64,000 nucleotides of DNA from Myxococcota bacterium (GTDB taxonomy: Bacteria > Myxococcota_A > UBA796 > UBA9615 > JAKLKC01). The DNA lies in NCBI GenBank assembly GCA_023150875.1, contig JAKLKC010000029.1, positions 1-64,000 of the forward strand, in the 5' to 3' direction. Within the stretch, counting starts at the first letter, position 1. Every line of letters starts with the position of its first letter. The translations under genes were made by a program, and so were the position numbers. Of this stretch, positions 21,872 to 40,550 are shown piece after piece. The notes below the pieces were generated by a model. The model was not told where the DNA came from. It ran no database searches and worked only from the letters and a program-made list of their open reading frames with translations.

Positions 21872-22618
21872 TCAGAACGTGTACTTGATGAAGGGGGAGA
21901 CGGCGAGGGCCATGGGGACGACGGGGAGGCCGAGCACCACGTAGAAGCTGGCGTCCACTCCCACCGAGAAGTGGGCGAGCTTGGTGTAGTACTCCAGGCC
22001 GAGCCCGCCGGTGACGAGGCCCGCGGGGGAGGAGTGGATCACGCCGGCGTCGGTGGTGCCGAGGGCGTCGGTGCGGAGGGACGGCGAGAAGTAGACGCCA
22101 CCCCCGACATCGAAGTACAGGGAGCCCCGCCGGATCTTCTTGCCACCGAAGTTGAGCGAGAACTTCACCCGCCCGATGCCGCCGATACTGCGGAAGTCGC
22201 CCTGCACGGGGCTGCCGCAGTCGCCGCACTCCAGGTTGCTGATGCCGTTGTTGATGCCCTGGAAGAAGTCGCCCTCCACGGTGAGGGTGAAGCCGGGCTG
22301 GTCGATGATGTCGCCGCCGAGGGCGAGGTCGACGGCGTTGCCGCCGCTGGTGACGGGACCGAGCTGGCCAAGGAAGACGAGGTAGCCGATGCCGCCGCGG
22401 ACGTAGAAGCCCTTGACGACCTCCCGCACCCGGCGCGCCGGCTTCGCCTTCTTGGCGGAGGACCGCGCCGTGTCACGGCCCTCCTCCTCCATGCCGCCGC
22501 CGGAGGTGTCCTCCTGGCCGGCTCCCTCGTCGTCGTCGTCCTGGGCCCGGGCGAATCCGCCCGCGGCGACGGAGGCGCCGACGATCAGGCACATCAGCAG
22601 GGACCGCAGATAGTTCAT
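21872..22618 (-). CDS. Outer-membrane beta-barrel of the Nfs/Glt-type complex (H-like, CglE type)
   Basis: A 248-residue exported protein: signal peptide (LLMCLIVGASVAAGGFARA), an acidic linker to about residue 45, then alternating strands (KGFYVRGGIGYLVFLG, FTLTVEGDFFQG, GRVKFSLNFGG, GSLYFDVGGGVYF, GGLGLEYYTKLAHFSVGVD) ending SPFIKYTF, with the C-terminal Phe of outer-membrane barrels. It is the last gene of the eight-gene operon, where nfsH/gltH sits in the Myxococcus locus. Orthology is inferred from position and type. Confidence 0.75.
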   Translation of the reverse strand: MNYLRSLLMCLIVGASVAAGGFARAQDDDDEGAGQEDTSGGGMEEEGRDTARSSAKKAKPARRVREVVKGFYVRGGIGYLVFLGQLGPVTSGGNAVDLALGGDIIDQPGFTLTVEGDFFQGINNGISNLECGDCGSPVQGDFRSIGGIGRVKFSLNFGGKKIRRGSLYFDVGGGVYFSPSLRTDALGTTDAGVIHSSPAGLVTGGLGLEYYTKLAHFSVGVDASFYVVLGLPVVPMALAVSPFIKYTF

Positions 22619-22715
22619 CGGGAGCAACCTCGGGCCGGCAGGGGACCGGCGGGATCGGGAGGACGAGGACGGATGTGTGGGGCGCCGGTCCCGGAGGACG
22701 CGGCGCCCCCGGGCA

Positions 22716-24605
22716 TCACCCCGCGGCCTTGAAGATGAAGGGATAGGAGACGATGACGATGCCACCGCCCTTGGGCTGGGGGAACTGGAACCGCATGAAG
22801 CGGCTCTCGATGCACTGCTCGACGATGGCGTTCTTCATCGTGCTCGTCTTGGTCTGCGCCGAGCTCACCTTCCCGTTCTTGTCGATGACGAACTTGATGA
22901 CGATCTTGCCGTAGAGCTTCGGGTTCTTGTTCAGCTCCTTGTTGTAGCAGTACCGGATCTCGTTCAGGTGGCTCTTGATGACGCGGTCGATGACCGACTT
23001 GTCGAGGGCGCCCAGGATGATGGGATCCCCCGTGCCCATGGAGGGCTCGCCGTCGCCCTTCTTGCCGATGTACCCGCCGCCCCGGCCGTAGCCGGAACCA
23101 CCGGTGCCGCGGCCCTTGGTGCCGAGGCCGCCGAGGCCCTCGCCGGTGCCGCCGCCGCCCAGGCCGCTCCCGCGTCCGCCGAGGCCGCCGGAGCCGATCT
23201 GCACGCCGTAGTTGGTGCCGATGAGCCCGCCCAGGGCGTTGCTGGCGCCCGCGCCGATGCCGCTGGCTCCCATGAGGGCGGCCATGTTGGAGTCCTGGTT
23301 CATGTCGGCGAGGAGACCGGCGCTCTCGGCGATCTCCTTGTCGAGCTGCTTCTTGTTCATGGCGACCTTGGTACCCTTGGCCGTCTTGACCTTGGCCTCC
23401 TTCTTGCCGACCTTGCCCTCCTCGCCCTTGGCCTTCGCTCCCTCGCCGGCGTCGGGGTTGCCCGAGGGCTCCTTCTTCTGGATCTCGGGCTTCTTCTCCT
23501 CCTCGAGGAGGAGCTCGGCGAGCCGGTCGGGGACCTCCTCCGTCGTGCGCTCGGGGTCGTACGGCGTGGAGTGGATGATGATCCCGAGGATCAGGGACAG
23601 GAAGAAGAGCAGCGCGAACACCCCGAGGAAGGTGTAGTCCAGGCGCTGCGTCAGCGGGATGGCGGTCCAGCGGGGCTGGTGGACCTCCTGGATGTAGAAC
23701 TTCTGGGCGCCGATCTCGATCGCCACCCGCGTGCCGGCCTCGATCTTGAACGAGTACGTGCTCCCGCTCTTCGTGGCCTTCCCGCTCTTGACGAGGTCCT
23801 TCAGCGAGGTGCGACGCCTCTCGGGGCCCTCCTCGACGAAGCCGGAGAAGGACTCCGCGAAGTACACCGTCACCGCGGCCCCGGCCTCGAGGAGGGTGAA
23901 GTGGGGGGCGGGGAGCAGGTCGGGGTGGACGTAGAGGTGGACCTCCCGGTCCTTCACGTGGAGCTCGGGGCCGAGGACCACCTTGTGCTGGTTCTTGCCC
24001 AGGTGCTTGACGTCGAGGATGGTCTCCCCCCAGACCTCCACCAGCTCCAGCTCCCGGGGCTTGCCCTTGTCGATGACCTGGTCCGTGCCCGGCAGGTCCG
24101 TGCGGAGGATCAGGGAGTCGAGTCCGGCCTTGCGCCCGAGGAACGCGCCGTGGACCTTGGGGCCGCCGTGGGCGTGCCAAGGCTGCTCCTCGTCGCTGCC
24201 GAAGCGGTTGGCGGGATCCCCCGACGGGGTCTTGTCGGTGGGGGCGTGGGTGGGCTTCGCGATGGGGACCTTCTTGGAGAGGGACGTGGCCGTCCTCACC
24301 CCGAGCCGGAAGACGGTGTTCCCCATGCGGATCTCGTCGCCGTCCTTCACGGGGGCGTTCTCGATCTTCTCGCCGTTGAGCAGCGTCCCGCCCTCGCTGC
24401 CCAGGTCCAGGAGCACCACCCCTCCGTCGGCGTCGACGTTCACCGCGGCGTGGAGCTCGGCCAGCGCGGAGTCGTCGATCTGGAGCGTGGCGTCGGAGCC
24501 TCGTCCGATCCGCACGCTCCCCTGGGTGAACTCCTGCTTGCCCTGGGGCTCTCCGCCCACCGTGATCTCGAAGGAGAGCGTGATCTTCGATCCGTTCGTC
24601 GCCAT
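22716..24605 (-). CDS. FHA - transmembrane - AgmX/PglI-type TonB-like protein (G-like)
   Basis: A 629-residue inner-membrane protein. Residues about 8-102 are an FHA domain (RIGRGSDATLQI, LHAAVNVDA, LLNGEKIE), which binds phosphothreonine. One transmembrane helix lies at about 322-345. The periplasmic part has charged repeats and a Gly-rich segment, then at about 525-629 the AgmX/PglI C-terminal domain (DKSVIDRVIKSHLNEIRYCYN, here split as DKSVIDRVI and HLNEIRYCYNKEL). This is the GltG/NfsG architecture, linking cytoplasmic signalling to envelope parts. It lies 97 bp upstream of the H-like gene. Confidence 0.85.
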   Translation of the reverse strand: MATNGSKITLSFEITVGGEPQGKQEFTQGSVRIGRGSDATLQIDDSALAELHAAVNVDADGGVVLLDLGSEGGTLLNGEKIENAPVKDGDEIRMGNTVFRLGVRTATSLSKKVPIAKPTHAPTDKTPSGDPANRFGSDEEQPWHAHGGPKVHGAFLGRKAGLDSLILRTDLPGTDQVIDKGKPRELELVEVWGETILDVKHLGKNQHKVVLGPELHVKDREVHLYVHPDLLPAPHFTLLEAGAAVTVYFAESFSGFVEEGPERRRTSLKDLVKSGKATKSGSTYSFKIEAGTRVAIEIGAQKFYIQEVHQPRWTAIPLTQRLDYTFLGVFALLFFLSLILGIIIHSTPYDPERTTEEVPDRLAELLLEEEKKPEIQKKEPSGNPDAGEGAKAKGEEGKVGKKEAKVKTAKGTKVAMNKKQLDKEIAESAGLLADMNQDSNMAALMGASGIGAGASNALGGLIGTNYGVQIGSGGLGGRGSGLGGGGTGEGLGGLGTKGRGTGGSGYGRGGGYIGKKGDGEPSMGTGDPIILGALDKSVIDRVIKSHLNEIRYCYNKELNKNPKLYGKIVIKFVIDKNGKVSSAQTKTSTMKNAIVEQCIESRFMRFQFPQPKGGGIVIVSYPFIFKAAG

Positions 24606-24777
24606 CTCTACATCCCTCCCTCACTGCGCCGCGGGCTCCGGGCGCAGGAGGACGTACACACTGGAGCGGGCGGGCAGGGCGCATTCACCCCCGTCCCGGG
24701 CGCGGACCCGCTCGTGGTGTGTCAGCAGGCTCCGAATGCGTCGACGATGCCTCGGCCGGTCCCTCCCGGCCGCGACA

Positions 24778-25047
24778 TCACTTCACCTGGTTCACCGAGT
24801 CGAACATCTCGGGGTTGAAGTCCGCCCGCATCTTGATGAGCGGGTTGAAGGCGGCCTGGCGCTTCTCGACCATGAACTGGCCGTGGGGCTTCTTCAGCTC
24901 GCCCTCGACCGAGACGTCCTCGAAGTCGATCTCGGTCTTCTGCTTGTAGATGACCTTCTGCCCGTCGTCCTCCTCCTGGGCCATCGCCGGAGAGGCCAGC
25001 GCGGCGAGGAGGATCGAGGCGGTGACCAGACCGAGCACACGCTTCAT
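24778..25047 (-). CDS. Small periplasmic protein (F-like, CglF type)
   Basis: An 89-residue exported protein: signal peptide LVTASILLAALASPAMAQ, then VIYKQKTEIDFEDVSVEGEL, KKPHGQFMVEKRQAAFNPL, IKMRADFNPEM and a short tail. The KTEIDFE...FNPLI...R.DFN pattern matches the small adventurous-gliding proteins annotated as CglF/GltF in Myxococcota, as far as I recall them. It lies between the E-like and G-like genes, where nfsF/gltF sits. The ATG at 25047 was chosen for its signal peptide; the frame upstream is open but lacks conservation. Confidence 0.8.
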   Translation of the reverse strand: MKRVLGLVTASILLAALASPAMAQEEDDGQKVIYKQKTEIDFEDVSVEGELKKPHGQFMVEKRQAAFNPLIKMRADFNPEMFDSVNQVK

Positions 25048-25151
25048 CGTCGTTTCCCTTCGTTGACTGGGCGCTCTCTCGGACGCCTCGGGGTGGGCTC
25101 GCCGCCCCGAGAGCACGTAGTGTACCGGAAGCCCGTGACTTTCCATACCCG

Positions 25152-26849
25152 CTACTGCTGCTGCGGGGGCGCGTCCCCGTTCGTTCCGCCGCCGTCGTTG
25201 GCAGCCGGCGCAGCGTCGCCCGCGGGAGCCGAACCGTCGCCGGAGCCTCCAGCCCCGGCCTCGGTGCCGGTCGCGGTGTCCCCGCCGGCCGCCCCCTCGC
25301 TCGGGGTGGCCGCGGCCGGATCGGCGGCGCCCCCCTCGTCTCCACCGGTCGTTCCGGCGGCCGGGTCGGTCGGCTGCGGGGTCGGCGCGGTGGGCGCCGT
25401 GCCGTCGTACTCGCCGATGGTGGCGCCGAACTCGCCGGGCACATACTGGTCACGAACGAACTCGTCGAGGTAGGCGACGGCCTCGGTGAGGTAGTCGAGA
25501 TCCTCGACCTCCAGGGCGTCCTTCACGCCGTCGATGTACTGCTGGAGGACCTCGTTGAAGCTCTCGTCGGGCACCAGCGTGCGGTACTTCTCCAGCATGG
25601 CGCTGGCGGTACCGATCCGCTTCGTGGCCAGGGCGGACTGGGCCGTGTACCGCTCGGCCCTCTCCTTCTCGAGGCGCTCCATCTCCGCCTGCATGCGGGC
25701 GGCCTCGTCCTTCTCGCTCTTGCGCCGGTCGATCTTCGCCTTGACCTCGGCCAGCGCCGGGTCGGAGGGATAGAAGCGTTCGAAGTCCGCCAGGGTCTTG
25801 TCCGCCGACTTCTGGTCGTCGAGGAAGTTGTTCTGGACGATGGCCTTGTTCAGGAGCGCGGTCTTGTTCTTGGGGTCGACGGCGAGCACCCGGTCGTACT
25901 CCGCCACCGCCTCGTCGAAGGACTGGTTTCCGCGGTATGCCACCGCCAGGCCGATGTGGGCGTCGGTGCTGCCGGGGTCGACGCCGATCACCGTGTTGAA
26001 GCACTTGCCCGCGAGCTGGTAGTCGCCGGAGTCGAGGGCGAGGAAGCCGAGGTTCAGGTTGGCCTCGACGTTGCCGGCGTCCAGCTCGATGGCCTTCTTG
26101 AACTCCTCCACCGCGGCGCCCTCGTTGCCTTCCTTCAGGAAGGTGAGGGCGATGTTGTTGTGGACATCGGCGTCCTTGTCGTTCTTCTTCAGGGCGTCGC
26201 CGGAGGCCAGCCGGCTCATCTTGTGGTTGCCCTGGAGGAAGTAGATCCGGGACAGGGTCTTGTACGCCTGCACGTTCTCGGCGTCCTGGGCCAGGATCTG
26301 GTGGACGGTGGACACCGCCTGGTCGTACTGACCGGCCTCTCCCAGGGCGGCCGCGTAGTTGTTCTTGATGGTCAGGGAGTTGGGGTCGCGCTCCAGGGCC
26401 TGCCGGAACAGGTCCGCGGCCTCCGCGGCGCGCCCGTTCCGGATGTAGAGGTAGGCCAGGTTCTGGGACGCCTGGCCCATGCCGGCGTCCACGCCCAGCG
26501 CCTTGCGATACCATCCCTCGGCCTTGCTGTCCTGGCCCAGGCGCTCCGCCGTCCACGCGGCGTTGTAGTAGTACCTGGCGGTCGGCGATCCGTTGGTCTC
26601 GGCGATCTGGACCGCCTCCTCGAAGTGGCGCAGCGCCGCCTCGTAGTCGGTCTTTCCGCCGCCCTCGCCAGCCTTCAAGGTCGCCAGCCCGTTCCGGTAC
26701 GAGGGGCCCGGGTCGGCCTGGTTCACCTCCTCGGTGACGACCTTCTTGGTCCCGCCGGTGCCGGTCTTGCACGCGGGCAGGGCCATCGCCGCCACGAGGG
26801 CCAGCAGGAGCGCCGGAGCGGGTCGGAACATCGGGAAGTCCATCGTCAT
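25152..26849 (-). CDS. TPR lipoprotein (E-like, AglT/GltE type)
   Basis: A 565-residue lipoprotein with lipobox ALPAC near residue 26. At least eight TPR units span about residues 50-340 (for example ASQNLAYLYIRNGRAAEAADL, split here as QNLAYLYIRNG and AAEAADLFRQAL; then NNYAAALGEAGQYDQAV, HIGLAVAYRGNQSFDEAV). A coiled coil follows (SEKDEAARMQAEMERLEKER) and the end is a low-complexity Ala/Gly/Pro/Asp tail. It probably sits in the periplasm under the outer membrane, as GltE does. ATG at 26849 is used; 26843 is also possible. Confidence 0.82.
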   Translation of the reverse strand: MTMDFPMFRPAPALLLALVAAMALPACKTGTGGTKKVVTEEVNQADPGPSYRNGLATLKAGEGGGKTDYEAALRHFEEAVQIAETNGSPTARYYYNAAWTAERLGQDSKAEGWYRKALGVDAGMGQASQNLAYLYIRNGRAAEAADLFRQALERDPNSLTIKNNYAAALGEAGQYDQAVSTVHQILAQDAENVQAYKTLSRIYFLQGNHKMSRLASGDALKKNDKDADVHNNIALTFLKEGNEGAAVEEFKKAIELDAGNVEANLNLGFLALDSGDYQLAGKCFNTVIGVDPGSTDAHIGLAVAYRGNQSFDEAVAEYDRVLAVDPKNKTALLNKAIVQNNFLDDQKSADKTLADFERFYPSDPALAEVKAKIDRRKSEKDEAARMQAEMERLEKERAERYTAQSALATKRIGTASAMLEKYRTLVPDESFNEVLQQYIDGVKDALEVEDLDYLTEAVAYLDEFVRDQYVPGEFGATIGEYDGTAPTAPTPQPTDPAAGTTGGDEGGAADPAAATPSEGAAGGDTATGTEAGAGGSGDGSAPAGDAAPAANDGGGTNGDAPPQQQ

Positions 26850-26882
26850 CACACCTTCGGGGCTCTGGGGGCCCGCCGGCTC

Positions 26883-29800
26883 CTACTCGGAGATGTAGCC
26901 CGCGGTGAGGAACGGGTTGCTGGTGTACCCGGCGTCGGGGTAGGTCTCCGCCATCGCGGGGTACTCGGCCGGGGAGATCTCGGTCAGCTTCCGGGCGGCG
27001 TACGCGGTGGACGCGTTGTACAGCCCCAGCTCGTACGACTTCTCGAGGGCCTTGCGGAAGTACTCGGCGGCCTTGTCCTGGAGGGGGTAGGCCTTGTCCG
27101 CCAGGGCCCCCTTGTACATCTCGCACTGCTCCTCGTTGAGCTTCTTGGGGCAGGGGGCGATCCGCAGCTTGTCGGCGAAGTCCTGGTAGAGCTCGCCGAT
27201 CGCCGACAGCGCGGCGATGCCCCACTCTCCCTGCTTCAGCGCGATCACCTTCACGTACATCTCCTCGGTCTTCTTGAGGGTGTCCGTCTTGGTCTTGAGG
27301 GCCTTGCGGGCCTCCTTGTCGTCGGCGGCGAACGCGATCTTCTTGTACTTCTCGAACTCCGGCTCCAGGACGACGAACTCCATCTCGGCGGCGTACAGCG
27401 GCGCCAGCCCGAGGACCGCGGCGTCCCCCTTGGGGAGCTGCGCGAACACCGCGAGGGAGTCGCGGAAGTGCTTGTGCATCCCCGCGACGTCGCCCTTCTG
27501 CTTCAGGATCTTCCCGTACTTGAGCCGGGCCTCGAAGACCAGCTCGGGGGCCGAAGTCGAGAGGACCTTGTCGGTGAAGAAGGTCTTGTAGAGCTCCTGG
27601 GCCTTGTCGACCTGCTTGTTCTCGTGGTGCAGGTTGGCGATCTTCATCCGGGTCGCCGCCACGTCCGGCTGGTCCGGGTAGGTGGTGACGTAGAGCTCGT
27701 AGTCCTTGACGGCACCCTGCCAGTCCCCCAGGGCCTCCCGGAACAGGGCCGCGTTGTAGAGCGCGTCCATCGCTCCGAGGTAGCCGTCGGCGGCGAACCC
27801 GGTGTCCCGGGAGACGAGCTGCTCGTAGTAGCGCGTGGCGGTGGCGTAGTCGGCCACCGACTGGTAGTGCACGCCCAGCAGGGCGACGCACTTCTCGAAG
27901 AGCTTGCGCTTCTTGTCCTCGTCCTTCTTGGGGACGTCCGGGAACTTCTCGATGAAGAGCTTGCGCCTCTCCAGCGAGGCGTCCTTCTTGCCCGCGGTCC
28001 AGGCGTAGGCGCCGGCGTTGAACAGGGCCAGGGGCGCCTCGTCGGCGCTCGGGAACTCGCTGTAGAAGGCGAAGTACTTCTCAGCCGCGTCGCTGACCTT
28101 GCCCGCGTCCTTCGCCGTCTCCTCCGCCAGCTTCAGGGTCGCGCGGCGGTAGATGGTGAAGAGCTCGTCCTTGAACTTCTGGGTCTTGCCGACGTCGGGG
28201 TTGTTGTAGAACTCCCGGGCGACGTCGTTGAGCTTCTCCCAGTCCTCGATGTCGGCGTAGCTCGACAGGATGATGTTCACCGCGTACTGGGCGAGCTCGG
28301 TCTTCGAGTTGGCGCGGATGATGGACAGGAAGCGCTCGTTGGACTCCCGGAACTGGTTCCGGTCGTTCAGCATCAGCGCCGCCTTGTAGAGGATGTTCGG
28401 CGTCTTGGGGTCGTCGGGGAGCACGCGCGCGTAGGTGTCGCACGCCTTGACCATGCGCTGCTCCCAGTCGTTGAGGGGGATGGGCGCGTACTTGACCTTC
28501 GGGTCCGTCGAGGACGCCTGGGCCTTCCTCTGGACCTCGGCCGCCTTGTCCCACTCCTTCTGCTTGACGCCGATGTACTTCTCGATGGCGAAGATGGTGT
28601 TGGAGGCGGAGTCCTTGAGGTACTTGCCCTTGCCGTCCTGCTCCACGACCTTCTCGTACTGGCCCGTGGCGACGTCGTACTTCTGGAGCTTGTAGAGCAC
28701 CTCCGCGTACCAGAAGCGCATCTCGTAGGAGTTCTTGCTGTCGGGGAAGTACGACAGGTACTTGTCGTAGTTGACCTCCGCCATCTCCAGGAGCTGCTGG
28801 CTCTTGCGCTTGAGGGCCTGCTGGTGGGCATCCACGGCGACGGTGCGGAGGTTGCGCTCGATGTACTCGTTCGCCTGCTCCATCGAAGACCGGTCGTCGG
28901 CGTTGGCCTGGCTCCACCGCGACCCCTTGCCGTACTCCGACACCAGCCGGTCGATCTCGACCTGGGCGTCGTTGAAGCGATCCCGGGACCACATCGCCTT
29001 GATGATGGCGTTCTGGTACTCGGGGTTGTCCTTGGCCAGCGGCTCCTCCTTGATGAGGGTCCGGTAGGTCTCGACGGAGAGGTCGATCTTGCCCTGCTCG
29101 CCGTAGACGCTCGCCAGGCGCTTGAGCATGTCGCGGTAGTACTTCTTCTGGCCGTACTTGGTGAAGTACTCCTTGGCCTCCTCCAGGTCCCCCTCCTCCG
29201 AGAAGAAGAGGACCAGGTCCTTCAGCGCCTCCTCCTTGAGGCTGATGCCCGTGTCCGCCTTGCCCGCGGCCTGGGTGATGCGGTCGGTCTCGGCGACCAC
29301 CCGCTTCATGGTCTCGATGGCCTCGCGGAACTCGCCCACGTTGTAGTAGCACCAGCCCAGCTTGTAGAGGGCGAAGGTGTAGATCTTCGTGTCCTTGAAG
29401 GACGCCGCCTTCCGGTAGGCCTGAAGGGCCTTGTAGGCGTTGTTGTTGTCGAAGTAGTACTCGCCGATGGCGTTGTACGCGTCCGGGACGTACTGCGACT
29501 GCGGGTACTGCTTGACGAGCTGGTTGTAGTACTCCAGCCCCTCCTTCTGGTCGCCGATGTCGTTCAGCGCGAAGGCCAAGTAGAACATCGCCTCGTCGAT
29601 GCGGGGGTAGTTCGGGTAGTTCTGGAGGATGTTCTGGTAGTTGGCGATGGCCTTGCGGGTGTACTGCTGGGAGCGGGTGTTGTCGGGCTTGGGCTGGCCC
29701 CTCTTCGCCTGCTCATCGGGGGGCAGGTTGAACCACTCGTCGTAGGTCTTCTCGAACTCCTCCATCTCCTGGAACGCCTCGTCCTTGGACTGCTCCCAGT

Positions 29801-30155
29801 AGAGGTCCGCGAGGCGCATCAGCATCTCGGCCTTCTGGGAGCCGGCGATGGCGGGGTTCTTGAGGATCTCCTTGAGCTGGTCGATGGCCTCCTGGCGCTT
29901 CTGCCGGGCGAGCTCGCTGTACTTCGAGCGCTCCTGCTCCTTCTGGTACTTCTTGAGGTCGACGACCTTGCGCTTCTCCTCGACCTTCTTCACCTCCTTC
30001 TTGGTCTCGGGCTCGCGCTGGGAGGTCGGCGCGGTGTCGCCCGCGGCACCGAAGGCGTCGTGGACGGCGAGCCACGCGCCTCGGCTCGGGGTGAGTACCG
30101 TCGCGCCCAGGAGAAGGGCGGTGGCGACGAGGCTGTGGGGACCGGGAAGGCGCAT
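26883..30155 (-). CDS. Large periplasmic TPR scaffold (D-like, AgnA/GltD type)
   Basis: A 1090-residue protein with a signal-like N-terminus (LVATALLLGATVLTPS), a charged coiled segment (KKEVKKVEEKRKVVDLKKYQ), and then many tetratricopeptide-like units across nearly the whole length (for example YPRIDEAMFYLAFALNDIGD, YTFALYKLGWCYYNVGEFRE, GYLGAMDALYNAALF). Size, position between the C- and E-like genes and architecture match GltD/NfsD. It is expected to bridge inner- and outer-membrane parts. The gene is 33 bp upstream of the E-like gene, so they are co-transcribed. Confidence 0.82.
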   Translation of the reverse strand: MRLPGPHSLVATALLLGATVLTPSRGAWLAVHDAFGAAGDTAPTSQREPETKKEVKKVEEKRKVVDLKKYQKEQERSKYSELARQKRQEAIDQLKEILKNPAIAGSQKAEMLMRLADLYWEQSKDEAFQEMEEFEKTYDEWFNLPPDEQAKRGQPKPDNTRSQQYTRKAIANYQNILQNYPNYPRIDEAMFYLAFALNDIGDQKEGLEYYNQLVKQYPQSQYVPDAYNAIGEYYFDNNNAYKALQAYRKAASFKDTKIYTFALYKLGWCYYNVGEFREAIETMKRVVAETDRITQAAGKADTGISLKEEALKDLVLFFSEEGDLEEAKEYFTKYGQKKYYRDMLKRLASVYGEQGKIDLSVETYRTLIKEEPLAKDNPEYQNAIIKAMWSRDRFNDAQVEIDRLVSEYGKGSRWSQANADDRSSMEQANEYIERNLRTVAVDAHQQALKRKSQQLLEMAEVNYDKYLSYFPDSKNSYEMRFWYAEVLYKLQKYDVATGQYEKVVEQDGKGKYLKDSASNTIFAIEKYIGVKQKEWDKAAEVQRKAQASSTDPKVKYAPIPLNDWEQRMVKACDTYARVLPDDPKTPNILYKAALMLNDRNQFRESNERFLSIIRANSKTELAQYAVNIILSSYADIEDWEKLNDVAREFYNNPDVGKTQKFKDELFTIYRRATLKLAEETAKDAGKVSDAAEKYFAFYSEFPSADEAPLALFNAGAYAWTAGKKDASLERRKLFIEKFPDVPKKDEDKKRKLFEKCVALLGVHYQSVADYATATRYYEQLVSRDTGFAADGYLGAMDALYNAALFREALGDWQGAVKDYELYVTTYPDQPDVAATRMKIANLHHENKQVDKAQELYKTFFTDKVLSTSAPELVFEARLKYGKILKQKGDVAGMHKHFRDSLAVFAQLPKGDAAVLGLAPLYAAEMEFVVLEPEFEKYKKIAFAADDKEARKALKTKTDTLKKTEEMYVKVIALKQGEWGIAALSAIGELYQDFADKLRIAPCPKKLNEEQCEMYKGALADKAYPLQDKAAEYFRKALEKSYELGLYNASTAYAARKLTEISPAEYPAMAETYPDAGYTSNPFLTAGYISE

Positions 30156-30275
30156 GTCTGGCTCACTCCGTCAATCGGACCTGGGGGGACCGCGAGGCCG
30201 GCCGGGGGCGGCTTGGGACGGGAGTTCCGTCCGCCCCCGCCACGGCGGTCGGGCATGGAGGGCGCCTGGGCGGCG

Positions 30276-32153
30276 CTACTCGCAAGACCCCTTCTCGGTG
30301 AAGATGTAGAACCCGAGCTCGTCGTGCCAGTACTCGTTGTTGAACGGCCAGTACACGTACTCGGGGTTGGTGGCGAACTCGTACTCGAGTCCCTCGGCGA
30401 TGTTGATCTGGTCCGGGTCTCGGGCGGCGGCCTTGTACTTCTGGTACTCGCCGCTGGCGACCTCGAACCGGATGATGGAGGCCTGACCCATCAGCTCGGC
30501 GAGCTGCTGGCCCACGGAGTTCATCTCGTTGACCAGCACGATGCCCGCGAGCTTCATGTATCGCTTGCGGCTGCGCTTCAGGCTGTCGAGGACGGCCTTG
30601 CCCACCGACGAGTCCCGCCACTGGCTCTTCATCGAGCCGACCAGGGCGATCTCCTTCTCGATCTGGAGGACGTGCCGGTGGGGCCCCGAGAAGTTCTGGT
30701 TCGCCTCGATGCGGGCGAACACCGCCTTGGGCAGCTTGGCGTAAGTCGAGTCCTTCGAGTACAGGGTCTTGTAGGCGTGCTGGGGGGGCAGCTCCCGCTG
30801 CTCGTAGGTCTTCACGAACCGCTGGATCTCGTCCAGCAGCGGCTTGTAGTAGGACTCGAACTGGTCGAGGGTCTTGGTGACGTCCCGGTACTCGCAGATC
30901 CGGTAGTACACCAGCGCCTTGAGGATGGTGACCTCGGGGATCCAGAACTCGTTGGTGAAGAAGGGCGACTCCACCGTCATGATGTGGCCGAGGGCGCGGT
31001 TCTCCTGGCCCTCCGCCATGAAGTACGCCCAGCTCGCCTCGAAGAGGGCCTCGGGCCAGTGGGGCGAGTAGCGCGGCATGACGTTGTCGTAGTAGTAGGC
31101 CGCGCGATCGAACTGCTCGATCCCGTAGTAGATCCGCCCCAGGTTCATCACCGACAGGGTCTTGAGACGCTCGGTCTCCTCGGGCTTGCTGTAGGGGCTG
31201 TTCTCCCGGATGACCTGGACGAACTTGTTGACCGCCTGCTTGAGCTTTCCCTGCCGGTTGTAGATGACGCCGGTGAAGTAAAGGGACTGGAGGTAGCGGT
31301 CGCTGTTGTCGGGCACCTTCGAGAAGTACTTGCGGGCCTTCGAGAAGTTCTGCTCCTCGAACATCCGCACCCCGAGGAGGTAGTTCAGGTCCGCCTGCAC
31401 CTTCGCGGGGAAGTCATCGGGGTTGACGTCGTTGATGAGGCGGACGATGGCCGAGTTGTCGCCGGTCTCCTTCGCGATGTAGACCAGCTTGGCGAGCGCG
31501 TAGCCGTAGTACGTCGTCCCGCCGCCGTCCTGGACCACCTTCACGAAGTAGGTCTGGGCGGAGTCGTACAGACCGAGCTTGTAGAGGGAGTCCGCCAGGT
31601 AGTAGTTGATCTTCACCTCCTGCTCGGGGTACTCGCCCTTCTCGAGGAGCTCGTAGAGGCCGAGGGAGGCGGTCAGGTACTTCTTGCTCTTGTAGATCCC
31701 GATGAACTGCTTGAGCTTGGGCGGCGTGCCCGCGATCTTGGCGGCGTTGCGCTGGCGGGCCGCCTCGTCCTCGGCGGTGCGGCGCACCCGGATCTCCTCT
31801 TCACCGTCGTCCTTGGGCTCCTCTTCCCCACCGGACCCGCTCCGGACCTCGTCGCGGGTGTCGCCCCCGCCGCGGGGCGCCTGCTCCTCGGCGGGGGTGG
31901 TGCTCCCACCGGAGCCCTGCATCGCCTTCAGGACGTCGTCGCTCACCCCCTCGCGGCGCAGGTTGATGATGTCCTGGGCGGAGAGGGTGAAGACCGCATC
32001 GCTCGACTGGATGGTCGAGATGATGATGCTGTCGGGCACACCGACCTTCACCATGTTGATGACGTCGTCCTGGCTGAGCGCCCACGCGGGGGCGGAGGCC
32101 AGCAACAGGCTCAGGGCGACGGCGGACTGGGCGACGAGGCGCTTGATCTTCAT
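30276..32153 (-). CDS. TPR periplasmic protein (C-like, GltC/NfsC type)
   Basis: A 625-residue exported protein: signal peptide (SAVALSLLLASAPAWA), then an N-terminal helical unit with LSQDDVINMVKVGVPDSIIIS and LSAQDIINLRREGVSDDVLKA (quoted in parts), a charged linker, and TPR repeats from about residue 130 (YLADSLYKLGLYDSAQTYF, YLQSLYFTGVIYNRQGKLKQ). The C-terminal 120 residues are helical without clear repeats. It matches GltC/NfsC by order and type. The B-like barrel gene ends 83 bp upstream. Confidence 0.8.
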   Translation of the reverse strand: MKIKRLVAQSAVALSLLLASAPAWALSQDDVINMVKVGVPDSIIISTIQSSDAVFTLSAQDIINLRREGVSDDVLKAMQGSGGSTTPAEEQAPRGGGDTRDEVRSGSGGEEEPKDDGEEEIRVRRTAEDEAARQRNAAKIAGTPPKLKQFIGIYKSKKYLTASLGLYELLEKGEYPEQEVKINYYLADSLYKLGLYDSAQTYFVKVVQDGGGTTYYGYALAKLVYIAKETGDNSAIVRLINDVNPDDFPAKVQADLNYLLGVRMFEEQNFSKARKYFSKVPDNSDRYLQSLYFTGVIYNRQGKLKQAVNKFVQVIRENSPYSKPEETERLKTLSVMNLGRIYYGIEQFDRAAYYYDNVMPRYSPHWPEALFEASWAYFMAEGQENRALGHIMTVESPFFTNEFWIPEVTILKALVYYRICEYRDVTKTLDQFESYYKPLLDEIQRFVKTYEQRELPPQHAYKTLYSKDSTYAKLPKAVFARIEANQNFSGPHRHVLQIEKEIALVGSMKSQWRDSSVGKAVLDSLKRSRKRYMKLAGIVLVNEMNSVGQQLAELMGQASIIRFEVASGEYQKYKAAARDPDQINIAEGLEYEFATNPEYVYWPFNNEYWHDELGFYIFTEKGSCE

Positions 32154-32236
32154 GGCGCTGCGGGCACCTTCGGCGTGAGCTCCCGGGGAGCCCCCGGCTC
32201 ACGCCGAGCCGGGGCGGGAAGGGTTCGAGAGGGCGA

Positions 32237-33145
32237 TCAGCGGGAGGACTTCACCTTGGGCGGCAGGAAGAAGCTCGCGCCGAGCTGGATCGCGAAGTTG
32301 TTCTTCATCTCCAGGTTGAGCTGGTCGCGGTCGACCTGCTCGATGTGGATGTAGGACCGGCCCTCGAGGCGGAGCGCGAAGAACTGGTTGAAGGCCACCC
32401 GGAACCCGAATCCGAAGTTGGTGGCCAGGTGCCACTGGTTGAGGAACCTCGGGTCGCCGCCCTCGATGATCTCTGCGTCGTCCGCGGTCTGCACCACCCC
32501 CAGTCCGATGAGGAGGTAGAGGTCGTAGTTGATGATCTTGAGGGTGCCGAGCTCGATCTTGCCGAAGATCGGCGACATGCCGATGTCGAAGGCCCCGATG
32601 AACTGGATCCGGGAGATGTCGGGGACGACCTCGGTGCCCGTCAGCAGCTCGTTGGTGAGCGCCTTGTAATCGGTCCTCCCCAGGTTCGGCGAGTAGGCCA
32701 AGAACCACTCCAGGCTGAACAGCTCGTTGACGTGATAAGCAATGTTCGCGCCAGCGAGAATCCGGCTCAGGAACGGGTCGTTGCTCACGTAGCCGAACAT
32801 CGGCGTGACCTCGACCCGATGGAACTTGAGGAAGTCCTTGCGCTGGACGATCTTGATGATGCGCTTGCGCTTGCCCTCGTCGATGAGGGGGTCGACGTCC
32901 TTCTTGCCCTTCCGCGGGCGGGCCTCGGCCTCGTCATCGGACGACCGCCGGGTGCTGGAGGTCGAACCCCCGTCGTCGGATCCGTCGCTGGAGCCGCCCC
33001 CTTCGGTCCCCCCCTCGTCGGAGTCGTCCTCCGCGGCGGCGACCGGGGGGCTCGCGGGCGCGCCGTCGGCGGGATCCTCCGCCGCGGCGAGGGTCGGGAG
33101 GAGCATCAGCAGGCCGAGGAGCGCGGGCAGGGGCGGGATTCGCAT
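32237..33145 (-). CDS. Outer-membrane beta-barrel (B-like)
   Basis: A 302-residue protein with signal peptide (ALLGLLMLLPTLAAA), an Asp/Glu/Ser-rich linker to about residue 95, then barrel strands: KFHRVEVTPMFGYVSND, ANIAYHVNELFSLEWFLAYS, QFIGAFDIGMSPIFGK, NYDLYLLIGLGVVQT, TNFGFGFRVAFNQFFALRLEG and a final FAIQLGASFFL. It resembles the A-like protein next to it, as gltA/gltB and nfsA/nfsB form barrel pairs. The shared FGYVSNDPF and FGFISNNPF segments suggest an ancient duplication. Confidence 0.8.
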   Translation of the reverse strand: MRIPPLPALLGLLMLLPTLAAAEDPADGAPASPPVAAAEDDSDEGGTEGGGSSDGSDDGGSTSSTRRSSDDEAEARPRKGKKDVDPLIDEGKRKRIIKIVQRKDFLKFHRVEVTPMFGYVSNDPFLSRILAGANIAYHVNELFSLEWFLAYSPNLGRTDYKALTNELLTGTEVVPDISRIQFIGAFDIGMSPIFGKIELGTLKIINYDLYLLIGLGVVQTADDAEIIEGGDPRFLNQWHLATNFGFGFRVAFNQFFALRLEGRSYIHIEQVDRDQLNLEMKNNFAIQLGASFFLPPKVKSSR

Positions 33146-33198
33146 CGGGCGTTCTCTCTGGTTCGCGGTGCTCTGCGAGGTGTTTCGCGGGGCAGGGC

Positions 33199-34095
33199 TC
33201 AGTTGTCGCGGGAGGCGACGGTGGGCTCCTTCTTCGCGCCCGGCACGAAGAAGCTCCCGCCGACGGTGACCACGAAGCTATTGGCGAGGGACGTGGTGCA
33301 CCGGGCGGCGGATCCCGCGGCGCCGCAGCTCAGGCGGTTCGCCTCGAGGCCGGGGAGGCGGTGGTTGGCCGAGGCGTTGTCGGTGTTGGAGAAGTCGAGG
33401 GTCTGGTCGAGGGTGAGGTAGAAGCGGGCGTCGATGCGCAGGGCCGCCGACCGGCTCAGGAAGATCTTCATGCCGAGGCCGAGGTTGGCGGCGAACAGGC
33501 TGTTGGTCTGCTCGGAGTAGATGTTGAGGACTCCGTCGTTCTCCAGACGGAGCATCTCGATGGTCTCGCCGAAGTAGCCGACCCCCAGGGCGAAGTAGAA
33601 GTCCAGGTTGATGACGGCGAGCCCCATGGGGTTGATCTTGCCGTACATCGGGCTCCAGATGAGGTCGACGTTGGCGTAGATCCCGGGGTCGGTGGCCTCC
33701 AGGTAGAACTCCGACTGGCTCTGGAGCAGTTGGAGGACCGCGCCGGCGAGGCCCTTCTCGTTGGCGGTGCCGGACAGGAACCCGTACTGCCCCTGCACCT
33801 CGACGGCGATGCGCTCGCTGAAGTGGTAGGCGAGGGCGAGGCCGCCGACCATGTCCTGGTTGAAGGGGTTGTTGCTGATGAAGCCGAAGAAGGGGGCGAT
33901 CTCCAGGCGCTTCGCCTTCGAGAAGAACTTCCGCCGGACCTTCTGGGGGCTCTTCTCCTTGGGGGCGCGGGTCGCGACGACCGTGCCGCCGTCGTCGACG
34001 CCGCTATCGGAGTCCTCGTCCGCGTCCGCGGCGAACGACGCCGTCGGCGACAGCATCAGCGCGCAAGCGAGGCACAGCAGGGGCCACCTTCTCAT
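33199..34095 (-). CDS. Outer-membrane beta-barrel (A-like), first gene of the operon
   Basis: A 298-residue barrel protein with signal peptide (LLCLACALMLSPTASFA), an acidic linker, and strands EIAPFFGFISNNPF, GLALAYHFSERIAVEVQGQYG, NVDLIWSPMYGKI, NLDFYFALGVGYF and LGMKIFLSRSAALRIDARFY. It is collinear with the B-like paralogue 53 bp downstream. ATG at 34095 is preferred over the adjacent GTG at 34098. A good minus-strand promoter lies about 175 bp upstream, giving a leader of about 165 nt. Confidence 0.8.
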   Translation of the reverse strand: MRRWPLLCLACALMLSPTASFAADADEDSDSGVDDGGTVVATRAPKEKSPQKVRRKFFSKAKRLEIAPFFGFISNNPFNQDMVGGLALAYHFSERIAVEVQGQYGFLSGTANEKGLAGAVLQLLQSQSEFYLEATDPGIYANVDLIWSPMYGKINPMGLAVINLDFYFALGVGYFGETIEMLRLENDGVLNIYSEQTNSLFAANLGLGMKIFLSRSAALRIDARFYLTLDQTLDFSNTDNASANHRLPGLEANRLSCGAAGSAARCTTSLANSFVVTVGGSFFVPGAKKEPTVASRDN

Positions 34096-34876: not shown

Positions 34877-35353
34877 CTAGGGTTCGGCCGTCGCCGGGGG
34901 CGCGGTGAGGAAGCGCCGGGCGGGGTCGACCAGGAAACGCCCGGCAAGGGCCGTGCGGCCGACGAGCATCGGGAAGACCATCTCGGTGCGGCGCGTCAGG
35001 GTGACGTAGGTGACGAAGGACAGGGACCCGATGAGGATGCGGGTCTGGATGAGGGGCCTCAGCTCGGTGTGGCCGCCGGAGTCGCGGACGGCGATCCGCC
35101 CAAGGAGGGGCAGGTCGATGGGGGGCGAGAGCTCCTCGGCGCAGCCGTCCAGGACGTAGGGCACCTGGAAGCGCAGGACGTCGTGGGTGGCGCCCGCGGC
35201 GTCGCGGACCGTGCCCACCACCGTGGGGTTCTCCACGTGCAGGGCGCACGAGCGGGCGCCGGTGTCCAGCTTCGCGGTGAGGAGCGGTACCCCCAGGTCG
35301 GGGAGCGCGATCCTCTCGACCCAGCCCGCCAGCAGGGGGGCGGGGGCTGTCAG
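34877..35353 (-). CDS. RimB-like retropepsin-type aspartic peptidase (PF05618 family)
   Basis: About 158 residues. The catalytic signature KLDTGARSCALH lies near residue 29, followed by the family's RFQVPYVLDG, RDSGGHTELRPLI and FVTYVTLTRRTEMVFPMLVGR segments. These proteins (formerly ATP-dependent zinc protease) occur beside RimK-like ligases. There is no ATG or GTG at the right place. The best start is CTG at 35353, overlapping the RimK-like stop (CTGA) with GGGAGGG just upstream, so translation is probably coupled. Confidence 0.75.
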   Translation of the reverse strand: MTAPAPLLAGWVERIALPDLGVPLLTAKLDTGARSCALHVENPTVVGTVRDAAGATHDVLRFQVPYVLDGCAEELSPPIDLPLLGRIAVRDSGGHTELRPLIQTRILIGSLSFVTYVTLTRRTEMVFPMLVGRTALAGRFLVDPARRFLTAPPATAEP

Positions 35354-36309
35354 GGTACCCTCCCGCGGGGGGCGCGTGCGGGGCGGGAGGGGCGGGGATC
35401 CGGTCGGGCGTCGGTGCGGACGGCGATCCCGGCGGCGATGTCCCTGGCGATCTCGCCAGCGAGGTCGCGGCCGGTGGCCCCCTCGATGCCCACGAGGCCG
35501 GGGGAGGCGTTGACCTCCAGGACCACGGGGCCCTTCGCCGACTGCAGGAGGTCCACCCCGGCGACGTGCAGGCCCATGACCCGGGCGGCGGCCAGGGCCG
35601 TGGCGGCCTCCTCGGGGCTCAGGTCGACGGCCCGGCACTCCGATCCGCGGTGGAAGTTCGCCCGGAACTCGCCCGAGCGCGCCCGCCTCTCCATCGCCGC
35701 CACCACCCGTCCCCCCACCACCAGGGCGCGGCGGTCCACGCCGTCGGCCTCGCCGATCCATCTCTGGACGACGATGGGCGTCCGGGTGGCGAAGAAGGCC
35801 TCGATCACCGAGCGGGCCGAGGGGATGGAGTCGGCGCGGCACACACCGGCCCCTTGGCTTCCCCGGAGGGTCTTGATGACCACCGGCGGGCCCCCCAGGG
35901 AGGCTACGAGGGCGTCCAGGTCCGACGCCCGGGAGGGCCAGGCGGTGTCCGGCACGGGGATCCCCGCCGCCGCCAGGCGGTGCACGGCCCGGAGCTTGTC
36001 CCGGGCGCGGGAGAGGGGACCGGGTGGGTTGATCAACCACGCGCCGCCGTCCCTGAAGGCGCGCATGAGGGTCAGCGCGAAGGAGGGGAGGGTCGGCGCA
36101 CCGCGGGCGAGCACCGCCGAGGGGGCGGGGAGGGGAGCGCCGCCCCGGGTGACGGTGGCGCCGTCGGCGCCGACGCGCACCTCGCACCGCCGGTCGTCGA
36201 GGAGGATGGTGTCGAGGCCGGCGGCGATGGCGCCCTCCAGGAGGCGCCGGGTCGTGGGGACGTCGGGCCTGCGGGTGAGGACGTAGAGGCGGGGTGGGGC
36301 GGGAGACAC
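35350..36309 (-). CDS. RimK-like ATP-grasp ligase
   Basis: A 319-residue ATP-grasp protein that joins amino acids, typically glutamate, to a protein or peptide terminus. Motifs are NPPGPLSRARDKLRAVHRLAAAGIPVPDT (in parts), PPVVIKTLRGSQGAGV, QRWIGEADGVDRRALVVGG and the metal-binding VLEVNASPGLVGIEG. GTG start at 36309. It overlaps the peptidase gene by four bases, so a modify/hydrolyse pair is plausible. The substrate here is unknown; ribosomal protein S6 is only the E. coli case. Confidence 0.85.
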   Translation of the reverse strand: MSPAPPRLYVLTRRPDVPTTRRLLEGAIAAGLDTILLDDRRCEVRVGADGATVTRGGAPLPAPSAVLARGAPTLPSFALTLMRAFRDGGAWLINPPGPLSRARDKLRAVHRLAAAGIPVPDTAWPSRASDLDALVASLGGPPVVIKTLRGSQGAGVCRADSIPSARSVIEAFFATRTPIVVQRWIGEADGVDRRALVVGGRVVAAMERRARSGEFRANFHRGSECRAVDLSPEEAATALAAARVMGLHVAGVDLLQSAKGPVVLEVNASPGLVGIEGATGRDLAGEIARDIAAGIAVRTDARPDPRPSRPARAPRGRVP

Positions 36310-36382: not shown

Positions 36383-37474
36383 TCAGTCGGTCGCTCCCTG
36401 GGTGACCTGGAAGCGGAACTCCACCCAGTCGAGGCCGCCTCGTCGGTCCCACGTCACCAGCCAGGCGTCGATGGGCTCGTCCGGGACCTCGTCGGGGGCC
36501 GTCCACGAGACCTCCCCGGGAGTGCCGTCGTCGTCGAGGTAGGAGTAGTCCTTGCTGAAGGTCCCCCCGGTGGCGTACCAGCCGAAGAGGGGCTCCTCGG
36601 TGCGGCACTCCGTCACCTCGTCCTCCAGCCGGATGTAGTAGTACCGCTCCACCGAGTCCCCGGTGTAGGAGGGCTCCAGGGCGATGGTGGTTCCCGCGGG
36701 GACCTCCAGGGTGGCCCCCTCGGGGATGTCCTGGAGGGGTGCCAGGGTGGTGGCGTCCACCTGGACCAGGCCGAGGAGGTCGGGGTTGGCGTTCCCGACG
36801 AGGCCGGGCACGTCCTCGCAGCCGGCGGTGGCCTCGGGGCTCGCGGCGCCCTTGTCGGCCACGGCGACCCGCTTGGTGGCCAGCTCGCCCCGCTCCGCCA
36901 CGACGCCGAACAGGTCGGCCAGCGCCTCCTGGAGCGCGTCGGGATCGGCGTCCGGGGAGCCGAGGTCCACCATCAGGTCCAGGAACCCCTGGAAGTCCTC
37001 GGCGGGGAGGATCACCAGGTAGACCTTGAACCCGATCCCCTCGACGCGGCGCAGGGGCTCCAGGGAGGCGAGGCGTTGCGCCAGGGTAACGGGGACGGTC
37101 TGCCCCTGCTCGTCGGTCTCCTCGTCGATCACCAGGTCCGGGTCGGCGGTGAACTCGTAGGTGTCCGCGGTGGGGTCCTGGAAGGAGATCACCGGCGAGC
37201 CGCAGGAGGTGACGCCGAAACCGGTGTCGATCTCGGTGCAGAGGAGCCAGAGGTTCTCGACGTCGGCGCCCTCGGGGTTGCCCACGACGTACCGGAACGT
37301 GGCGGTCTCGCCGAGGGCGATCTCCGGCGGATCCGCCTGGACCCCGAGGACCCTCAGGCGGACGACCTCCGACGGTCGGGTGAGGTCGGGCACCGAGCAA
37401 CCGGCGGACGCCCAGAGGAGGGCGACGGGGGCGGCGGCGGCCGCGAAGGACCGGATGAGTTCCCTGGCGGTCAT
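36383..37474 (-). CDS. Lipoprotein of unknown function
   Basis: A 363-residue lipoprotein with lipobox SAGC near residue 26. The start (RPSEVVRLRVLGVQADPPEIALGE, given in parts RPSEVVRLRVLG and ADPPEIALGE) introduces a beta-sandwich-like N-terminus; a late EVSWTAPDEVPDEPIDAWLV segment suggests an Ig-like C-terminal region. Its ATG overlaps the TonB-receptor stop by one base (TGATG), so it is translated with the receptor and may be a surface substrate-binding partner. Confidence 0.75.
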   Translation of the reverse strand: MTARELIRSFAAAAAPVALLWASAGCSVPDLTRPSEVVRLRVLGVQADPPEIALGETATFRYVVGNPEGADVENLWLLCTEIDTGFGVTSCGSPVISFQDPTADTYEFTADPDLVIDEETDEQGQTVPVTLAQRLASLEPLRRVEGIGFKVYLVILPAEDFQGFLDLMVDLGSPDADPDALQEALADLFGVVAERGELATKRVAVADKGAASPEATAGCEDVPGLVGNANPDLLGLVQVDATTLAPLQDIPEGATLEVPAGTTIALEPSYTGDSVERYYYIRLEDEVTECRTEEPLFGWYATGGTFSKDYSYLDDDGTPGEVSWTAPDEVPDEPIDAWLVTWDRRGGLDWVEFRFQVTQGATD

Positions 37475-40400
37475 CAGAAGTCCACCCGCAGGCCGAGGTT
37501 GGGCAGGAAGGGCAGGCTGTAGATCCACGCCTGCTCGGAATAATCGAAGTTGTAGGTGGCCTGCTCGACGTTGCGCTGGTTGTAGAGGTTCAGGATCTCG
37601 ACGTAAGCCAACAGCTTCCAGGTGCGGAAGCGGAACTGCTTGTCGACCCGCAGGTCGAGCTGGTGGAAGGTCGGCATCCGCTCGGCGTTGTACTCGCCGG
37701 AGATCGCCTGGTACGAGAAGGCGTCCACGTCGTAGAGCAGCCGCTCCTGGGTGGTGTAGGGGTTGCCCGAGACCAGTCGGAACCGCAGCCCCACCGAGAG
37801 CTCCCACGGCAGGTCGTAGCGGGCGATGACGTCCAGGATGTGGGGCTGGTCGAAGTCGTAGCGGTACCAGTCGTCGTCCGGGGCATCCCGGCGGAACGAC
37901 CGCTGGTAGGTGTAGGCGATCCAGCCCTGGAAGCCCTTCCAGGGCTTGAGCTCCAGCAGGAGCTCGCCGCCGTAGATGTAGCCGTCTCCCCGGTTGTCCC
38001 AGATCACGGTCCCGCCGGTCAGGTCGTCCTCGAAGAAGACGGGGACCACGAGCTCCGACAGACGCTTGTAGAAGAGGTCCACGTCCAGGCGGAGGAAGTC
38101 GGTGAAGCGCTGCTCGACTCCGAAGGTCACCTGGAAGGATCGCTCGGGGTGGAGGTCGGGGTTGCCCGTGCCCTCCACCCACTCGAAGGGCTGGGGGTTC
38201 TGGTGGTAGAGGCCGACGCTGCCCTTGAGGGTCGTGCCCCGGACGACCTCGGCCCGGAACGAGAAGCGGGGATCGACGGTGAGCGCCGAGAACACGCCCG
38301 GCACGGCGTAGTAGTCGAGGCGCACGCCGGGCAGGAGGGTCAGCCGGTCCCCGACCGGCCGGAGGATGCCTTCGACGTAGCCGGCTACGCCGCCGCCGGA
38401 GTCGCTCCCCTCCACCAGCAGGGGCTCCCTCTCGGCGTTGGGGTCGTCGAAGCCGCTCTGGTGGTCGAAGCTGGAGAGCAGGATCGAGAAGTCGTAGGCG
38501 CCGACGATGCCGTCCAGGCCACCGTGGACCGTGAGCCACGGGGCCACCTCGCCGTAGGCGTCCACCCGGCCGGTGACGCTGTGGGAGGAGCTGTCGAGCT
38601 TGAACGCCTGGGTCACGTTGAACAGGGTGTAGTCCCAGCCGTAGGCGACGTTGGCGGTGAGCCGGAGCCTCGGGGTCGGCCGCAGGTCGGCGTACAGCAT
38701 CTGCCGGGTGAAGCGGATCGCGGTGTCGATCTGGCCGCTGGTGTCGGGGTTCCCGGGGTTGACCGGGTCTTCGGAGTAGACGCCAGCGGCGTCGTCCGAG
38801 TAGTAGCCGAACCAGCCGAAGCGAGCGTCCGGACCCGGCTGGAGCTGGACCTTTCCCTGGGCGTCCCACCAGCGGGGGAGGGTGGTGCGGGAGAGGTCGA
38901 GCTCGGGCGGGGCGATGGCGGGGAGGACCACGTCCAGGTAGGACCGGCGGGCGGCGATGGCGAAGCCCCCCAGGGGGTTCGTGGGGTCCCCCTTCCGGGG
39001 CAGCGGGCCGGTGACGGCGGCCTCGCCGTCGATGAAGTCGAGGCGGACGAGCCCGTGGACCTCCTTCGGGAACTCCATGCGGCTCTTGACGTCGAGGGCG
39101 CCGCCGGTGCTGCGGCCGTAGGTGATCCCGTAGCCGCCGGGGAGGAAGTCGATGGAGTCGATGAGGACGGGGGAGATCACCGAGCGCAGCCCGCCGAAGT
39201 GGTAGATCAGCGGCACCCGCACGCCGTCGACGTTGATGCTGGTGTCCTCGGGGGCGCTCCCCCGGACCAGCAGGAGGCCGAAGTCGAAGGGGGAGCGGGC
39301 GACGCCGGGCATGTTCTGGACGGCCTTGATGGGGTCGCCGAAGGTCCCGGGGATCCGCTCCAGCGTGGCGATCTCCAGGGTGCGGCGGGCGACCTCCTTG
39401 CGCTCCTGCTTCACCCGCACGACGGTGCGGTTCCCGCCCCGGGGGGCCGGGCGGACGTAGTAGGTGACCTCCGTCGCCTCTCCGGGGCGGACCTGCTCCT
39501 CGGTGCGGAACCTCTCGAAGCCCGGGGTGGCGATGAGCACGTTCCAGATCCCGTCGGGGACGCCGCGGAACTCGAAGTGCCCGCGGCCGTCGGTCATGGC
39601 GACCCGGTCGATCCCCTCGATGAGGACCTCGACGTTGGCGAGGGGGGTGCGCTCGCCGCGCTCCCGCACCGTGCCCGAGAAGTTCACCGGCGCGTCGGGG
39701 GGGACCGCTCCCGCGGCGGTGTCGCCCGGGGCGGGGGTCTCCGGAGGCGGCGGCGCGCGCAGCTCGAAGTGGTAGACGTAGGTGATGGTCACGGCGACGG
39801 GGACCTCCCCCGCCAGGCCCGGGCGGAACTCGAACTGCCAGGCCGCCCGGATCGCCTCGGCGTCGAAGCCGTGGCCCGCGGGGGTGACGAGGCGGACGTC
39901 CATCACCCTGCCGTACTCGTCCACGTCGATCTGGAGGACGGGGCTCCCCGCGATCCCGCTGGCGGCGGCGTCGGGCGGGTACGGAGCCTCGACGAAGCGG
40001 GAGATCTCCGGGGGACGGGTGAGGTCGGGGCCCGGCGTGCCGACGACGGGATCGAGGCCCACCACGTCGGGGGAGTCGAGGACGATCCGATAGAAGAACG
40101 GCGCCACCGCCACCGGGGAGCCCGCGGTGTCGAGGCCGGGGTCGAAGGGGGTGGCGCGGACGGCGGCCAGGGCGGCCTCGCCGAGGCCGTGCCCCGGGGA
40201 GACCAGGACCCGACCGTCCGCGACGGCGCCCCCGGCGTCGATGGACAGCTCCAGCACGACGGGGCCCTCGACGCCCGCCGCGACGGCCTCGGGGGGGAAG
40301 GGGACGTCGGGGGCGACGATGGGAGACGGGGGCGTGGTGACGGAGAAACCCGGTAGAGGCCCCGCCGGGGGCAGCGGGGGAACCGGCGCCGCGGTGGTCG

Positions 40401-40530: not shown

Positions 40531-40550
40531 CCGCCCACCCGCGATCCCGT

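Follow-up and report, generated by a model that had tools for sequence, protein, structure and literature searches.

A contiguous eight-gene Glt/Nfs-type operon and its conserved Ton receptor neighbours in a Myxococcota bacterium

Which task did the Glt/Nfs family of envelope machines originally serve? A locus in the genome of a Myxococcota bacterium (GenBank assembly GCA_023150875.1) bears on this question, since it contains eight collinear genes, here named A to H, that are homologous to the gliding genes gltA-H and the spore-coat genes nfsA-H of Myxococcus xanthus. The window is the whole stretch of DNA that was analyzed, comprising the first 64,000 nucleotides of contig JAKLKC010000029.1 (G+C content 71%). 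The M. xanthus proton motor AglRQS is common to both machines, AglR binds GltG and NfsG, and together with NfsA-H this motor moves glycan on spores without gliding (PMC3858216). The ancestral core of the family was described as 'of unknown function' (PMC3169522). Judged from its sequence, the window operon is a complete eight-gene relative of these gliding and spore-coat machines. We tentatively propose that it encodes a proton-powered force transducer of a deep lineage of the family, which spans the envelope and would move or present a cargo at the cell surface together with a Ton-energised receptor, rather than a machine for MglA-controlled gliding.

The operon A-H and its place in the Glt/Nfs family

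The operon lies on the minus strand and runs from the ATG of A at position 34095 to the stop codon of H at 21872, with gaps of 33-172 bp between the genes (Table 1). Components were named with NCBIfam and Pfam profiles, and signal peptides (on A, B, C, D, F and H) and the lipobox of E were judged by eye. The NCBIfam cut-offs were exceeded by A and B (TIGR04565), by H (cut-off 70 bits) and by the AgmX/PglI tail of G (115 bits). The scores of C, E, F and G were below the equivalog cut-offs and the operon is therefore regarded as a distant member of the family; on the GltC and GltG models, NfsC and NfsG of M. xanthus reached 209 and 337 bits, respectively, compared with the higher values of C and G. 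For D, NCBIfam gave matches to tetratricopeptide repeats (TPR) only, but its identity to GltD and NfsD extends over ~1,000 residues, and a profile built with D included (A1) retrieved both M. xanthus proteins. The structure model of H has eight strands and its Foldseek matches were OmpA/NspA-type barrels, at modest confidence (mean predicted local distance difference test score, pLDDT, of 66). Sequence searches of the PDB with C and G returned only TPR designs and FHA domains, and scans for promoters and terminators gave nothing above chance. Homologues of all eight Glt/Nfs components, several of them below the equivalog cut-offs, are thus present in one locus. A preliminary description of this DNA had reported a complete operon on one strand at the same coordinates, and this is borne out by the profiles, the identity of D and the conserved gene order in the class to which the bacterium belongs.

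The family is widespread, as a GltC profile matched 221 of the 282 genomes from the phylum. Lujinxingia vulgaris is among these genomes (match at C135:192021-193478), and the window therefore probably belongs to the phylum of the Bradymonadia. Within the class, the order A-B-C-D-E-F was kept in 23 of 23 loci, with an extra G-like open reading frame (ORF) before F in one or two. The full set A-H was found in 17 loci (12 exact, five with an additional F- or G-like ORF), while two lacked G and four had no recognised H or ended early. Because A-F occurs in all of these loci and A-H in 17, the order is not attributed to chance. Two arrangements were seen outside the class: in one, C-D-E-F-G precedes a ~300-residue TPR gene and then a giant one; in the other, a giant, GltI-like TPR gene comes after A-H. 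The nfs genes of M. xanthus AM003 and Archangium lansinium (L177, L187) are arranged as A-B-C-D-E-F-G-H on one strand, whereas their glt genes occur in two separate parts, B-A-C and D-E-F-G-H (L180, L176; L188, L190; the AM003 glt contig ends after E), in agreement with published work (PMC3858216, PMC3169522). Since nfs is contiguous and glt is split, the order in the window is that of nfs, and the collinearity with nfsA-H pointed out in the preliminary description was confirmed.

Some variation was seen at G. Two class genomes (L055, L057) have A-F and H contiguous, with no G between F and H. GltG of order-mates (L204 15000-18434, L201 15363-18779, L206 14945-18211) comprises ~1,100 residues, of which ~500 are additional to the window GltG; these separate the FHA from the periplasmic part and have no clear Pfam family.

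Trees were calculated from concatenated C, D and G (~2,060 columns, LG+C20 model with posterior mean site frequencies, quick search), with support given only by the Shimodaira-Hasegawa-like approximate likelihood ratio test (SH-aLRT), and the paralogous core clusters served as root. The class of the window formed one clade (100%), which lies inside the Glt/Nfs radiation and apart from the core paralogues (100%); the position outside the Glt/Nfs clade that would have refuted the preliminary description was not obtained. All Glt-type loci, including glt of Myxococcus, formed one clade (100%), and the second-copy clusters of other families a separate one (100%). The class is sister to the Glt-type clade and not inside it, and is nested in neither Glt nor Nfs; class, Glt-type loci and L061 were grouped at 96%. 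Single-gene trees of C and G also placed the class as sister to Glt-type (89% each), and D gave no resolution. In the free tree, Nfs formed a long branch outside the class and the Glt-type loci.

Approximately unbiased (AU) topology tests were performed on groups that were named after the trees had been seen, which weakens them. Forcing the class together with Nfs cost 5.6 log units and was not rejected (p 0.29). Forcing the class with Nfs, the second copies and L061 was weakly rejected (p 0.037), and a clade of Myxococcaceae glt and nfs was rejected (p 2e-6, with the caveat of the long nfs branch). Because of this last rejection, and under the same caveat, the trees suggest that the split between glt and nfs is older than the 'recent duplication' of the literature.

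The window proteins are equally distant from Glt and Nfs. Taken as a whole, the trees are consistent with the class being a deep lineage within the Glt/Nfs radiation, leaning to the Glt side. Two alternatives had been offered in the preliminary description, an ancestral module or a sporulation/coat version. The ancestral A-H module would fit, because the lineage is deep, the order A-H is intact and no GltI is attached, whereas a giant downstream TPR gene is generally present in the sampled Glt-type loci. The coat version is not supported by the position of the class or by its distances, and a plain Nfs orthologue, as deduced from gene order alone, was not adopted since the free tree does not place the window there.

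The Ton cassette upstream of A

The conserved locus is longer than the preliminary description had it. An exbB-exbD-tonB-receptor-lipoprotein cassette, which had been overlooked, is located 2.3-8.4 kb upstream of A on the same strand, and its genes are spaced by -4 to 20 bp. Homologues of exbB, exbD, receptor and lipoprotein were found in the same order and on the same strand directly before A in 18 of the 18 other class genomes checked. These genomes span several families, and their receptors and ExbB proteins are 33-43% and 45-55% identical to those of the window, respectively; tonB was seen by eye in both of the two loci read among them. Outside the class, receptor or ExbB was detected in none of 45 Glt/Nfs-type loci, counting only loci in which at least 4 kb upstream could be seen.

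In the window, 1,254 bp and a rimK-like gene separate the lipoprotein gene from A. No match to rimK was obtained in the other class loci searched (18 genomes), and the ligase is probably not part of the machine. The structure model of the lipoprotein is largely beta (pLDDT 73). A 1240-residue ORF (37474-41196) was considered as a single receptor and rejected, as tonB lies in a different frame over the first 222 codons; the receptor probably starts at 40530, with a signal peptide.

Table 1. Features of the operon A-H and of the upstream cassette in the window (TM, transmembrane segment).
Feature	Position	Strand	Basis
A, gltA/nfsA-like outer-membrane barrel	33199..34095	-	TIGR04565 OMP_myx_plus 89.4 bits; signal peptide (by eye)
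B, gltB/nfsB-like outer-membrane barrel	32237..33145	-	TIGR04565 OMP_myx_plus 89.3 bits; ~25% identical to A
C, gltC/nfsC-like periplasmic TPR protein	30276..32153	-	NF033756 GltC 283 bits
D, gltD/nfsD-like large TPR protein	26883..30155	-	32-33% identity to M. xanthus GltD and NfsD
E, gltE/nfsE-like TPR lipoprotein	25152..26849	-	NF033758 GltE 136 bits; lipobox LPAC (by eye)
F, gltF (cglF)/nfsF-like small exported protein	24778..25047	-	NF033764 62.6 bits; signal peptide (by eye)
G, gltG/nfsG-like FHA-TM-TonB_C-like inner-membrane transducer	22716..24605	-	NF033760 380 bits; FHA; AgmX/PglI tail
H, gltH (cglE)/nfsH-like 8-stranded barrel	21872..22618	-	NF033755 CglE/GltH 91 bits; predicted OmpA-like
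exbB/tolQ-like proton channel subunit, start of Ton cassette	41819..42451	-	PF01618 118 bits
exbD/tolR-like subunit	41381..41809	-	PF02472 100 bits; linkage conserved
tonB (N-terminal TM, Pro-rich, TonB_C)	40551..41384	-	PF03544 51 bits; GTG start inferred
TonB-dependent receptor: two fused TonB_C, CarboxypepD_reg, plug, barrel	37474..40530	-	Pfam; linkage conserved
Lipoprotein-like partner gene of receptor	36383..37474	-	lipobox by eye; class homologues at same place; no Pfam match
RimK-like ATP-grasp ligase between lipoprotein and A	35350..36309	-	PF08443 167 bits

On the other side of the operon, a 1282-residue ORF without Pfam or NCBIfam match (17942-21790, plus strand) is convergent to A-H. 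Many class genomes carry a conserved lipoprotein-like gene downstream of H (L054 16259-16912, L121 19642-20298, L144 13721-14374, L158 19039-19692). It is followed by a ribosomal protein L3-like gene (by eye) and, in several genomes, by coenzyme A (CoA) transferase genes, of which the window retains CoA-transferase B at 17255-17911.

Motor genes, MglA and the possible task of the machine

The preliminary description had reported that AglRQS and GltJ are lacking, which holds for the window but, as regards AglRQS and probably GltJ, not for the genome. Seven MotA/ExbB genes are present in the genome, and one of them is the first gene of an unlinked AglRQS-like triplet on contig C104 (L039 8235-10108), in the order R-Q-S as in M. 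xanthus and with identities to the M. xanthus proteins of 58% (AglR-like), 36% (AglS-like) and 26% (AglQ-like). Two GltJ-like ends, a C-terminal part at the end of contig C33 (95 bits) and an N-terminal zinc ribbon at the start of C145 (41 bits), are probably pieces of one split gene. GltI was not found beside A-H and neither GltI nor GltK is in the cluster, to which this search was confined, as had been stated before.

The search for MglA, likewise suggested in the preliminary description, gave no match at E 1e-8 in the genome of the window, in one protein search of a draft that is 98% complete; the query was confirmed against PDB entries before use. PF00025 was also tried as a probe and gave one weak, uncalibrated match in a 1008-codon frame, which was not used. 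MglA matches were obtained in 42 of 58 class genomes, and several class genomes carry GltC without an MglA match (e.g., G112, G132, and G019).

The same genome contains a core-type cluster, C-D-E-F-aglR-G, on contig C136 (~19-30.5 kb; L028 13137 to L029 4494). A second GltC is encoded next to a barrel gene on contig C103 (L198 8303-11043) and is 32% identical to NfsC, compared to 28% for C of the window. This pair was rejected as a hidden nfs operon, as only C and a barrel are present and D, E and G are not; comparable GltC and barrel pairs occur in the order-mates L202, L203, and L205. Contig C136 also carries a flagellar cluster at 118-138 kb (L041; FlhA, FlhB, FliR, FliQ, and MotAB-like, by eye), and therefore the bacterium probably swims.

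In the proposed machine, proton flow through the AglRQS-like motor would move GltG in the inner membrane, and GltG would push the periplasmic TPR proteins C, D and E and the small protein F against A, B and H, the barrels of the outer membrane. In M. xanthus, GltA and GltB are known as outer-membrane barrels that stabilize GltC (PMC4488436). The load at the surface would be the cargo of the neighbouring Ton-energised receptor and its lipoprotein, a polymer or a protein that is taken up or exported, and not gliding slime. That the machine would use proton flow to move or pull at the outer membrane is deduced from the published work on AglRQS, Glt, Nfs and Oar of M. xanthus, where the receptor Oar and a Ton system export a protein (PMC6434023). 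The proposed tie between the cargo and the Ton receptor is drawn from the linkage. Counted in favour of the proposal were the component profiles, the position of the class in the trees, the class-wide Ton linkage and its absence from the loci outside the class, the AglRQS-like triplet, the lack of an MglA match in the same genome, and the published precedents of AglRQS with NfsA-H and of Oar. A class with A-F in every genome checked, usually with A-H, always beside the Ton receptor and here with no MglA detected points to transport of envelope cargo over gliding. A closer union, in which transducer and ExbBD-TonB receptor with its fused TonB domains would form one composite, class-wide machine with one cargo and two proton motors, is possible but on balance doubtful.

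Several points weigh against the proposed cargo machine. Linkage by itself is no proof of joint function, and the cargo is a guess. The Ton cassette may be transcribed separately, given the gap and the rimK-like gene in the window. The absence of MglA was deduced from a single protein search, made on a draft genome, and many class-mates have MglA-like proteins, so that gliding is possible there. Instead of A-H, the AglRQS-like triplet might drive the core cluster on C136, even though an AglR-like gene is already part of that cluster.

The Ton cassette might also be merely a stable neighbour, with A-H alone acting as an envelope transporter of unspecified cargo. Besides the separation of both parts in the window, the housekeeping-like L3-like and CoA transferase genes, which are likewise stable neighbours downstream in the class, would agree with this. 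We consider it unlikely, as the Ton genes precede A directly and on its strand in all 18 other genomes checked, across several families and at the identities given above. Slightly less likely still is that the operon serves gliding in its lineage, as a deep relative of Myxococcus Glt that works with AglRQS and GltJ encoded at other loci but without polarity control by MglA. The sister position to the Glt-type clade, the AglRQS-like genes and the split GltJ-like gene would be expected of such a machine, and Bdellovibrio was reported to glide despite the absence of GltH, I, J, and K (PMC3169522); however, no MglA match was obtained, GltI is not in the cluster, swimming is available through the flagellar genes, and the Ton linkage is left unexplained. 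That the operon is an Nfs orthologue wrapping a coat polymer around resting cells is improbable, since the free tree sets Nfs apart, the wider grouping with Nfs was weakly rejected and the window is no nearer to Nfs than to Glt, even though the exact nfsA-H order, the lack of GltI/J/K in the cluster and the AU test of class with Nfs would allow it.

Comparison with known systems

By domain layout only, the receptor and its neighbours can be likened to Oar and its Ton system (PMC6434023), with a receptor of CarboxypepD_reg, plug and barrel beside exbB, exbD and tonB; the window receptor differs by two further TonB_C domains and by its linkage to a Glt/Nfs-type operon. The core complex of GltC/D/E/G and AglRQS described for gamma- and deltaproteobacteria (PMC3169522) has a copy on C136 with its own AglR-like gene, whereas the window operon also comprises A, B and H and belongs to a separate clade. 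With M. xanthus GltA-K (PMC3169522) it shares homologous A-H, an unlinked AglRQS-like triplet, a GltJ-like gene elsewhere and a neighbouring clade, but A-H is contiguous and not split, GltI is not in the cluster and MglA was not found. Compared with M. xanthus NfsA-H (PMC3858216), the eight components, their order on one strand, the lack of GltI/J/K in the cluster and the unlinked motor are alike, whereas the window operon stands apart by identities of ~24-36% for most proteins, by a position not nested with Nfs and by the Ton cassette linked to it.

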